The position numbers were made by a program, and so were the translations under genes. DNA of 64,000 nucleotides from Sutcliffiella horikoshii (GTDB lineage Bacteria; Bacillota; Bacilli; Bacillales; Bacillaceae_I): NCBI GenBank assembly GCA_001636495.1, contig KV440964.1, positions 1,070,666 through 1,134,665 of the forward strand, read 5' to 3'. Numbering within the stretch: position 1 is the first letter of the stretch; each line of letters begins with the position of its first letter. The notes beneath the pieces are model-generated. The model was not told the origin of the DNA, did not search any database, and worked only from the letters and a program-made list of their open reading frames with translations. Shown here piece by piece: positions 8,045 to 11,900 of the stretch.

Positions 8045-8923
8045 ATGCGAGTCACACAAAGCATGCTGACGCAGAACTCACTGCGACAATTAAGCACAAG
8101 CTACAGCAAAATGGGCAAGTTGATGGAACAGCTCTCCACAGGCAAGAAAATCTCCCGGCCATCCGATGACCCGGTTGTTGCGATGAAGGGGATGTACTAC
8201 CGTACAAACCTGACGGAGCTTGAGCAATACAAACGTAACCTGAGTGAATCGTATGCTTGGATGGAGAACTCCGAAGCCGCATTGGATCATGTTCAAAGCG
8301 TGATGCACCGTGCACGTGAATTGGTGGTGCAGGGGTCCAATGATACCTACTCACCAGAAGATCGTCAGGCGATGGCAAAAGAGATCGAGCAGCTGAAACA
8401 TGATTTCGTTCAAGTTGCCAACACGCAGGTAGCTGGGAAGTACATTTTTAATGGGACGGCGATTGATAAGCCGCGAATTACGGATGCGAATGATCCTTCG
8501 TCTGTAAGCACGGAAAATTCACCGTTTGAGGTGGAGGTATCTCGTGGAATTAAGCTGCAATCTAACATTAATTCGGAAAATGTTTTTAATAAAGACATGA
8601 TGGAAATTTGGAATAGTCTGCAGTCCGCGCTGGAAACGAGTGATACGGGAGCTTTGAAAGATTTGATGGGACGTTTTGATAAGGCTGCCGATACGATTTC
8701 GGCTGAGCGTTCGGAGCTTGGTGCTCGTTACAACCGTTTGGAGATGGTGGACAACCGGATCGGCTATCAGGAAGTGGTGGCAACACGGATCTTGTCCGAT
8801 AATGAGGATGCGGATATTGAGAAGGTTATTACGGATTTGACGTCGCAGGAGAGTGTGCATCGTGCTTCACTTGGTGTAGGTGCGCGTGTGATTCAGCCTT
8901 CGTTGTTGGATTTTTTAAGGTAG
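8045..8923 (+). CDS. flgL: Hook-filament junction protein FlgL (HAP3)
   Basis: The 292-residue flagellin-like protein has N-terminal MRVTQSMLTQNSLRQLSTSYSKM and LSTGKKISRPSDDPV and C-terminal SLGVGARVIQPSLLDFLR, the usual FlgL end. It forms the second junction ring between FlgK and the filament. Co-transcribed with flgK; the next gene, yviE, is separated by a repeat element. Confidence 0.95.
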   Translation: MRVTQSMLTQNSLRQLSTSYSKMGKLMEQLSTGKKISRPSDDPVVAMKGMYYRTNLTELEQYKRNLSESYAWMENSEAALDHVQSVMHRARELVVQGSNDTYSPEDRQAMAKEIEQLKHDFVQVANTQVAGKYIFNGTAIDKPRITDANDPSSVSTENSPFEVEVSRGIKLQSNINSENVFNKDMMEIWNSLQSALETSDTGALKDLMGRFDKAADTISAERSELGARYNRLEMVDNRIGYQEVVATRILSDNEDADIEKVITDLTSQESVHRASLGVGARVIQPSLLDFLR

Positions 8924-10662: not shown

Positions 10663-11478
10663 ATGAGAATTAATCACAATATTGCTGCGTTGAACACGCA
10701 CCGTCAGCTAGGTACTGCTAACAATGCGCAAATGAAGTCAATGGAGAAACTTTCTTCTGGATTAAGAATTAACAGAGCAGGAGATGACGCTGCTGGTCTT
10801 GCAATTTCCGAAAAAATGAGAGCCCAGGTAAAAGGATTAGATCAAGCTTCTAGGAATAGCCAGGATGCGATCAGTTTAATTCAAACAGCAGAAGGAGCGT
10901 TGAATGAAACTCACTCGATTCTTCAACGTATGCGTGAACTAACTGTTCAAGCAGGTAACACAGGAACTCAACAAGAAGAAGACCTACAAGCAATTCAAGA
11001 CGAATTGGATTCTTTAGTTTCAGAAATAGACGGAATTTCAGAGCGCACAGAATTTAACGGAAAAAAGCTTCTTGATGGTAATTTCAACGGAAAGTTCCAA
11101 ATTGGTGCTAACTCTACACAACAACTTGACCTTGCAATCGCAGCAGCGGATTCAGCTACATTAACTGTTGATACTGTAGATGTAACTGCTGTAACTTTTG
11201 ACTTTGATACAGAAGTTGCTAAAATTGATGAAGCTATCAAACTTGTATCGAGTGAACGTTCTAATCTTGGTGCTACACAAAACAGACTAGAGCATACAAT
11301 CAACAACTTAAGTACTTCTTCTGAAAACCTAACAGCTGCGGAATCTCGTATCCGTGACGTTGATATGGCAAAAGAAATGATGGAACAAACTAAGAATTCT
11401 ATTCTTGCACAAGCATCACAAGCGATGTTGGCTCAATCCAATCAAATGCCTCAAGGTGTACTTCAACTCTTGAGATAA
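10663..11478 (+). CDS. hag: Flagellin Hag (unspliced reading)
   Basis: The 271-residue flagellin starts MRINHNIAALNTHRQLG. D0/D1 helices are conserved at both ends (LSSGLRINRAGDDAAGLAISEKM; AKEMMEQTKNSILAQASQ). A short variable domain lies near residues 150-190, making the protein shorter than the 304-residue B. subtilis Hag. Read without splicing, it ends AQSNQMPQGVLQLLR at 11478, a complete flagellin terminus. A group I intron core follows immediately, and beyond it the same terminus is encoded again (NQQPQGVLQLLR, stop 11851-11853). The C-terminal codons therefore exist twice. RBS AGGAGG at 10648. Confidence 0.95.
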   Translation: MRINHNIAALNTHRQLGTANNAQMKSMEKLSSGLRINRAGDDAAGLAISEKMRAQVKGLDQASRNSQDAISLIQTAEGALNETHSILQRMRELTVQAGNTGTQQEEDLQAIQDELDSLVSEIDGISERTEFNGKKLLDGNFNGKFQIGANSTQQLDLAIAAADSATLTVDTVDVTAVTFDFDTEVAKIDEAIKLVSSERSNLGATQNRLEHTINNLSTSSENLTAAESRIRDVDMAKEMMEQTKNSILAQASQAMLAQSNQMPQGVLQLLR

Positions 11479-11814
11479 TTGATTTAGAGGGCGTCTAGAT
11501 TGGTAACGAGCTAGAGTATAACTGGGTGAATTGCTGGAACCTCCTAAAGCCACTTCAACCACAGCGAAACTGGAAACAGTAGGCGTTAAGGTATGAAAAT
11601 GAAGGGGATGTAACAATGGACAATCAGCAGCCAAGCTCCTGAGAGGAAACTCTGGAGAAGGTTCAACGACTAGAGAATACGGTCTAAGGTGAAAGCTATG
11701 ACTATGAATCTCGTAGGGCAGCCTTAAAGCTGTTCGAAGTGCCCAGCTCCTACTTAAAATAGGATGAAGATATAGTCTATTCTATGATCGAAAGACATAG
11801 TCGCAAAGCAAGCG
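11452..11814 (+). ncRNA. Group I intron at the 3' end of hag
   Basis: All core group I elements are visible: P AATTGCTGGAAC (11529), Q AATCAGCAGCCAAG (11622), R GTTCAACGACTAGA (11661) and S AAGATATAGTC (11767). Helices: P3 CTGGGT/GCCCAG (11522/11741), P4 TGCTG/CAGCA, P6 CTCC/GGAG, P7 GACTA/TAGTC, P8 TCCTA/TAGGA, P9 CTATG/CATAG with a GAAA loop, and P2 TCTAG/CTAGA. The 60-odd nt between R and P3' suggests an IA-type P7 extension. There is no homing endonuclease frame. Boundaries are uncertain. The given start uses a 6-bp P1 (AUGCCU with GGGCGU at 11489-11494) and the end uses the G at 11814. An alternative is 11438-11812, which would splice to an exactly canonical flagellin end. Confidence 0.88.
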
Positions 11815-11853
11815 AACCAACAACCACAAGGAGTTTTACAGCTTCTTCGTTAA
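11815..11853 (+). other. hag: 3' exon of hag: second copy of the flagellin C-terminus
   Basis: The codons read NQQPQGVLQLLR followed by TAA. They encode nearly the same residues as the end of the upstream hag frame, but with different synonymous codons (for example tta-cag-ctt-ctt-cgt against ctt-caa-ctc-ttg-aga). The copy has no start codon or RBS and can only be expressed by splicing. The hag terminator follows it. Confidence 0.85.
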
Positions 11854-11864
11854 TAATAATTCTA

Positions 11865-11900
11865 AAAGGGACTCTAGATTAATAGGGTCTCTTTCCTTTT
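11865..11900 (+). terminator. Terminator of hag
   Basis: AAAGGGACTC (11865-11874) pairs with GGGTCTCTTT (11885-11894) with two wobble pairs, followed by a short T-rich tail. It lies after the second flagellin terminus, consistent with that being the ancestral gene end. Confidence 0.75.

Follow-up and report, generated by a model that had tools for sequence, protein, structure and literature searches.

This study analysed a 64,000-nt window of the Sutcliffiella horikoshii genome (contig KV440964.1), and all coordinates given below are positions in that window. The flagellin gene hag starts at position 10663 on the + strand, and its product matches the Pfam domains Flagellin_N and Flagellin_C. 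By their general features, we take its neighbours to be fliW, csrA, flaG, fliD, and fliS. The preliminary description had recognized that the flagellin C-terminus is encoded on both sides of an intron in different synonymous codons, and the results agreed: the reading frame entering the intron ends in AQSNQMPQGVLQLLR-stop, and the segment following the intron reads QANQQPQGVLQLLR-stop. The copy in the intron comprises the last 14 codons of hag and the stop codon. The features of the locus are as follows.

10663 to 11433, + strand: hag 5' exon, up to ...MLA, within the 271-aa ORF 10663-11478; its predicted 5' splice site, set by P1, follows GCU.
11431 to 11434, + strand: predicted P1 5' strand GCU^C, with U11433 at the splice site (GCTC in 60/60 carriers; window fold).
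11434 to 11808, + strand: group I intron, 375 nt (RF00028 match; ends placed from P1 covariation and from P9.0 pairing by eye).
11434 to 11478, + strand: intronic copy of the terminal exon, QSNQMPQGVLQLLR and stop (frame and coding constraint), read solely from unspliced RNA.
11440 to 11445, + strand: predicted 5' strand of the P1 extension, AAUCAA, in codons 3-4 of the copy (folds onto 11479-11484; covaries between lineages).
11479 to 11484, + strand: predicted P1 extension, 3' strand UUGAUU, between the stop codon of the copy and the guide (fold; covariation).
11489 to 11492, + strand: predicted P1 3' strand (internal guide) GGGC, with G11490 facing U11433 (GGGC in 60/60 carriers; window fold).
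11809 to 11853, + strand: 3' exon, QANQQPQGVLQLLR and stop (frame; matches intronless hag endings), read solely after splicing.
11865 to 11894, + strand: terminator-like stem-loop after hag (pattern scan).

The host genome held no other close match to hag; the second match, at 31% over residues 1-146, was to a 292-aa ORF at window position 8045, which we read as FlgL. The pattern scan found one stem-loop after hag, and since shuffled sequences gave a mean of 1.1, this stem-loop alone is no evidence of function.

The Rfam model RF00028 matched positions 11471-11800 with 77.4 bits (cut-off 50; E 6.1e-18), covering model positions 1-253 of 253. By sequence, the element carries the conserved core, a 5' exon U that pairs as U.G with the internal guide sequence, and a terminal G with an adjoining P9.0, and its removal restores the host frame. 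We classed the element as a group I intron because the core, P1, and terminal G were each tested for and found. The sole other DNA match to it spanned 46 bases at 81%. Two further group I matches lie outside the window: one of 73.6 bits (L027, G000:C1:2032329-2032657) interrupts a gene read as nrdE, and the other, of 41.8 bits, falls below the cut-off (L028, G000:C1:1162842-1163122). The nrdE intron was considered as a guide to the 3' splice rule and set aside, its junction not being assignable.

At the 3' end of the intron, inspection by eye revealed that just the G before CAA is conserved in more distant relatives. The bases preceding this terminal G pair with those before P9 at several loci (also by eye); these P9.0 pairs are UU/AA in the window, CA/UG in L193, GAG/CUC in L191, AAG/CUU in L192, and GU/AC in a different group I intron of hag (intron 1, see below). 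The Ala codon 3' of the splice site is variable (GCG, GCC, GCA), as exon sequence would be. These three observations, combined with the 5' site indicated by P1, place the intron at 11434-11808. Inspection by eye showed no P10 pairing to the 3' exon.

The 5' splice site was placed after GCU, at U11433, because GCUC can pair with GGGC in all 60 carriers with an intronic copy and because the stem extension covaries. By sequence, GCTC and GGGC, with the U.G pair at the splice site, occur in 60/60 of these loci. The basal helix has just 4 bp; in predicted duplexes it formed in 58/60 loci (L060 and L091 adopted another register), and the extension formed in 59/60 (not in L056). In the extension, the codons after GCTCAA pair with the segment between the stop codon of the copy and the guide, and both strands change together. 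The strands of each locus paired at -8.12 kcal/mol, against a permuted mean of -7.26 (SD 0.20), and 1 of 20000 permutations was as good, a figure that, like the binomial ones below, ignores shared ancestry. A copy class paired best with its own strand for QSNQ (49 loci), QANS (7), and QAQQ (1), whereas QSQQ (2 loci) paired better with the QAQQ strand (-8.2 vs -6.5 with its own) and QSNS (1 locus) paired weakly with its own (-1.7 vs -3.9 with the QANS strand). The P1 hairpin of the window folded at -17.6 kcal/mol, and 1 of 200 shuffles was equally stable. The Ala codon before the splice site is GCT in 60/60 carriers vs 21/27 intronless genes from two genera (Fisher p 0.0006). The supported splice pair is therefore predicted as 11433/11434 with 11808/11809, and the intronic copy would lie wholly within the intron, in the P1 stem-loop; capture of the host 3' end inside P1, raised earlier just as a possibility, is borne out in that 11434-11478 falls inside the predicted P1.

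Several other splice sites were considered. Splicing from 11437 to 11813, proposed in the preliminary description, did not hold, since no conserved P1 was found for it in the 60 loci. Its second proposal, splicing from 11451 to 11815, draws on the 6-bp helix AUGCCU/GGGCGU in the window, and across the 60 loci the required U is present in 54 and at least 4 contiguous pairs form in 44. Given this helix, some use of the 11451 site may occur. As a route to a longer flagellin, splicing from 11451 is exceedingly improbable: the U is missing from 6/60 loci despite an invariant guide sequence (GGGCGT in all 60), the window fold reaches -8.7 vs -17.6 kcal/mol for the supported P1, joining to the supported 3' site would insert six residues, and the site is absent from three more distant loci that carry the intron (L193, L198, and L200). 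A 5' site after AUGUU, which pairs with GGCGU in 60/60, was rejected for want of a fitting in-frame 3' site with a preceding G. The idea that gene conversion had destroyed the 5' splice site is not supported, given the presence of both GCTC and GGGC in 60/60 carriers.

In silico joining of 11433 to 11809 restored the host frame and gave a 271-aa product, ...MLA followed by QANQQPQGVLQLLR. The spliced product is thus predicted to end exactly in the native AQANQQPQGVLQLLR, in place of the AQSNQQP... ending, or the one longer by four residues, expected earlier. Unspliced RNA also encodes a full flagellin, as had been proposed; its 271-aa frame continues from ...MLA into QSNQMPQGVLQLLR-stop. The spliced and unspliced products differ at two positions, residue 259 (A/S) and residue 262 (Q/M). 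The spliced ending is identical to that of 25 of the 27 intronless hag genes from two genera, and the remaining 2 end in QANQAPQGVLQLLR. (L141 and L150, which bear no intron mark in the intronless listing yet contain the guide sequence, were counted as carriers.) This near identity indicates that the intronic copy is the derived one in those two genera, and it led us to reject the converse, in which the intronic copy would be the native end of the host and the 3' copy would have been brought by the element. An intronless flagellin of another family (L201) ends in QSNQTPQGVLQLLR, which shows that the intronic type of ending also exists by itself.

The arrangement recurs in many Bacillaceae. The intron matched over the full query length in 7/16 genomes of the genus, and both endings were present at all 7 loci. 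A scan of a genome collection (84,980 species) for the 3' junction returned 65 stretches, in Sutcliffiella, Peribacillus, Rossellomorea, Niallia, Metabacillus, Mesobacillus, Fictibacillus, Heyndrickxia, Priestia, Neobacillus, Sporosarcina, and others; the same pattern gave 0 stretches in the viral contigs scanned. Pooling the genus loci with the scan stretches and removing duplicates left 65 distinct carrier loci, and the intronic copy was present in 60 of them; 4 were cut off by the locus end (L033, L040, L053, and L075) and 1 had a broken intron (L041). The contig carrying L053 is labelled Pseudomonas sp. ISL-84, and with its Bacillaceae-type junction this label is probably wrong. Recurrence in 7/16 genus genomes and 60/65 distinct carrier loci argues that the double ending is not a product of chance. 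A pattern of the intron 3' end that left the 3' exon free occurred in 33/397 genomes of the order, at 38 places; among 30 loci fetched from it, 27 had exactly QANQQPQGVLQLLR, 1 had S for N (L122), and 2 were decayed (L113 and L117). A core pattern was found in 12/398 genomes of the class, and 8 of these lie outside the order of the window; the intronic copy was present in 11 of the 12 and absent from 1 (L193).

We compared the evolution of both copies by counting codon changes on a tree of the intron core, for which 60 of 68 distinct loci were usable (L012, L033, L040, L041, L053, L059, L113, and L117 were dropped as truncated loci or broken introns); these parsimony counts are approximate. 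The comparison was limited to codons 7-14 because codons 1-6 were, in most 3' copies, already set by the scan pattern. The intronic copy accumulated 94 codon changes with 4 amino-acid changes, and the exonic copy accumulated 61 with 1, where about 71% of random changes in these codons would alter the protein (the binomial probabilities, run with 0.68, are approximate). As the intronic copy is read solely from unspliced RNA and the exonic copy solely from spliced RNA, constraint on both implies effective translation of each RNA; on this sequence evidence, each copy appears to be translated. In L188 and L190, both copies read QAVLQLLR, through either gene conversion or shared selection. In a further observation, the first 17 or so nucleotides of the 3' exon (CAAGCGAACCAACAACC, window 11809-11825; L096-L125) are nearly invariant in the order, silent sites included.

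These counts bear on two rival explanations. One is that splicing always takes place and that the intronic copy persists purely as P1 structure. Part of the copy does form the P1 stem and covaries, yet 90 of the 94 codon changes in QGVLQLLR (eight codons) are silent, the stop codon follows in 60/60, and L193, L198, and L200 form a P1 without any copy; we consider this explanation very unlikely. The other is that the intron no longer splices and that the 3' copy is a fossil. Loci with a broken intron lend it something, since the 3' copy proved dispensable in three of them (L012, L113, and L117). With intact introns, however, the 3' copy shows the single amino-acid change noted above among 61 codon changes, and P1 and the core are conserved, so that there is little chance of the 3' copy being a fossil. 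Among 61 intact introns, 59 had an exact 3' copy, 1 had S for N (L122), and 1 was cut by the locus end (L059); among 4 broken introns, the 3' copy was decayed in 3 (L012, L113, and L117) and intact in 1 (L041).

Two of the broken loci have structures of their own. L012 (reverse complement, about 1000-1700) contains an intact intronless hag with its own ending and, about 400 nt on, an intron 3'-end remnant with a decayed second C-terminus. L113 (about 1070-1610) looks chimeric, a joined element to which intron 1 contributes its 5' half and the C-terminal intron its 3' half; the exon between the joined halves is lost and the 3' copy is decayed.

Constraint on both copies, with a consensus that differs between them, would also fit a regulated splicing switch between functionally different C-termini (S259/M262 vs A259/Q262), for instance by temperature, and PMC4853749, in its excerpted text, reports that the splicing of thermophile flagellin introns depends on temperature. 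The differing residues, however, fall at the variable positions (17 amino-acid changes at codon 5 of the intronic copy), intronless genes end similarly (for example QSNQTP in L201, and QANQAP), and nothing points to a regulator. We therefore regard such a switch as improbable.

The same intron was found at the same site without the copy in three more distant loci. Their unspliced frames run from MLA into QLLVA-stop (L193), QFEQIAA-stop (L198), and QFEQVA-stop (L200), and single endings follow the 3' site: QANQQPQGILQLLR in L193, QANQMPQGVLQLLQ in L198, and QANQTPQGVLQLLR in L200. Each retains GCUC/GGGC with a stem above it. The preliminary description had named relatives with the same intron, a single C-terminus, and a 5' splice site elsewhere as evidence against its proposal; the single ending was found in these three loci, and the 5' site was in the same place. 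Because of this combination, the copy-less loci look like the state before exon capture, which is a plausible reading of their sequences. The likely history is intron insertion followed by capture of the exon into the P1 loop, a direction that is presumed here. Patterns for copy-less introns matched 2/397 genomes of the order (L198 is real; L197 is not a flagellin) and 9/398 of the class, where the real cases were G443 (L196, the same place as L193) and L200. The others in the class were L199, which is not a flagellin, the intronless flagellins L201 and L206, and L202-L205, judged intronless solely from matched strings identical to, or one base off, those of L201.

Another group I intron, intron 1, interrupts hag after RDVD in many relatives (for example L006, L010, and L034) and is absent from the window. 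Its unspliced tails at 34 loci were YALAA (27), YALVA (3), YVLAA (3), and YALAV (1), and those in L198 and L200 were YDSAA and HTEAA. When intron 1 was taken together with the uncaptured form of the C-terminal intron (intron 2), which gives the tails QLLVA, QFEQIAA, and QFEQVA, 38/39 unspliced tails ended in Ala, with differing residues upstream. Such tails resemble the SsrA degradation tag. The Ala-ended tails are a lead and not a result, as RNA pairing could explain part of the pattern in the common YALAA form; the nucleotides of that form also form the P1 stem (by eye), and the tail of intron 1 was for this reason rejected as a proven degron. A broader reading treats the two endings as bacterial alternative terminal exons, in which self-splicing would pick between two maintained C-termini and hag introns would have two answers to unspliced RNA: an SsrA-like Ala tail where the exon is uncaptured and a completed protein where it is captured. 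The YDSAA and HTEAA tails make this reading slightly likelier, and we put it forward tentatively, as one that is probably not correct.

Near two intron-bearing hag genes, LAGLIDADG_2 ORFs lie just downstream on the opposite strand (L011, 166-1170, + strand; L013, 2050-3057, - strand; Pfam 101.7 and 97.2 bits), and these are possible free-standing homing endonucleases.

The explanation that we favour, and hold to be quite probable, is that a self-splicing group I intron captured the terminal exon of its host, that the gene tolerates failed splicing, and that both outcomes are used. It draws on both frames, the conserved and covarying P1, the retained arrangement, the constraint on both copies, and the copy-less loci, each of which is visible in the sequence itself. 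A group I intron would have inserted in hag between GCU and CAA, 14 codons before the stop, and would later have taken up a copy of the terminal exon in its P1 stem-loop. Ribosomes following RNA polymerase closely would read unspliced hag past the 5' splice site and into P1 while the ribozyme is still incomplete; translation would then yield a complete 271-aa flagellin (...QSNQMPQGVLQLLR) and terminate 10 nt short of the guide sequence, without reaching the ribozyme core. Spliced molecules would yield the native 271-aa flagellin (...QANQQPQGVLQLLR). With a complete flagellin either way, the gene would not depend on splicing efficiency. We infer that splicing occurs in vivo and that both proteins are made in useful amounts; the copy was presumably kept for tolerance of failed splicing, and the order of events given here is likewise presumed.

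Bacterial protein genes are considered unfavourable sites for group I introns, as translation close behind transcription can disturb folding (PMC3984707, in its excerpted text). By bringing the missing exon with it, the hag intron appears to have got round this limit. At the level of sequence, the constraint on both copies points to use of spliced as well as unspliced RNA, and the cost of failed splicing, together with the states before and after exon capture, can be put to direct test in a motility gene that is highly expressed.

Flagellin genes of thermophilic Bacillaceae can contain group I introns (Hayakawa and Ishizuka 2009, 2012), whose splicing is needed for motility at higher temperature, as far as excerpts of PMC3984707 and PMC4853749 relate; stop codons in frame within introns of this kind have been discussed before (excerpt of PMC3984707). 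These introns resemble the hag intron in lying within a flagellin gene in the same broad bacterial group, whereas a second copy of the flagellin end is not mentioned in the excerpts. IStrons and the c-di-GMP-controlled group I intron of Clostridioides difficile are likewise bacterial group I introns, and their splicing is regulated or uses alternative sites (PMC4853749, PMC3984707, PMC8987985); unlike the hag intron, they have no captured terminal exon, and unspliced RNA is not described as encoding a complete host protein in the passages of those papers that treat them. The C-terminal duplications of mitochondrial cob and atp6 in Endoconidiophora resinifera (PMC6279837) also place a second 3'-end copy near mobile-intron genes, as in hag, but in intergenic spacers beside homing endonuclease ORFs, and the relevant section describes neither a location in P1 nor joint use in splicing. 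A search of open-licence PMC literature, as far as its excerpts reach, found no report of a terminal exon captured by a flagellin group I intron. The presence of such introns in flagellin genes is already known, and what appears new here, at the level of sequence, is the captured and constrained terminal exon.
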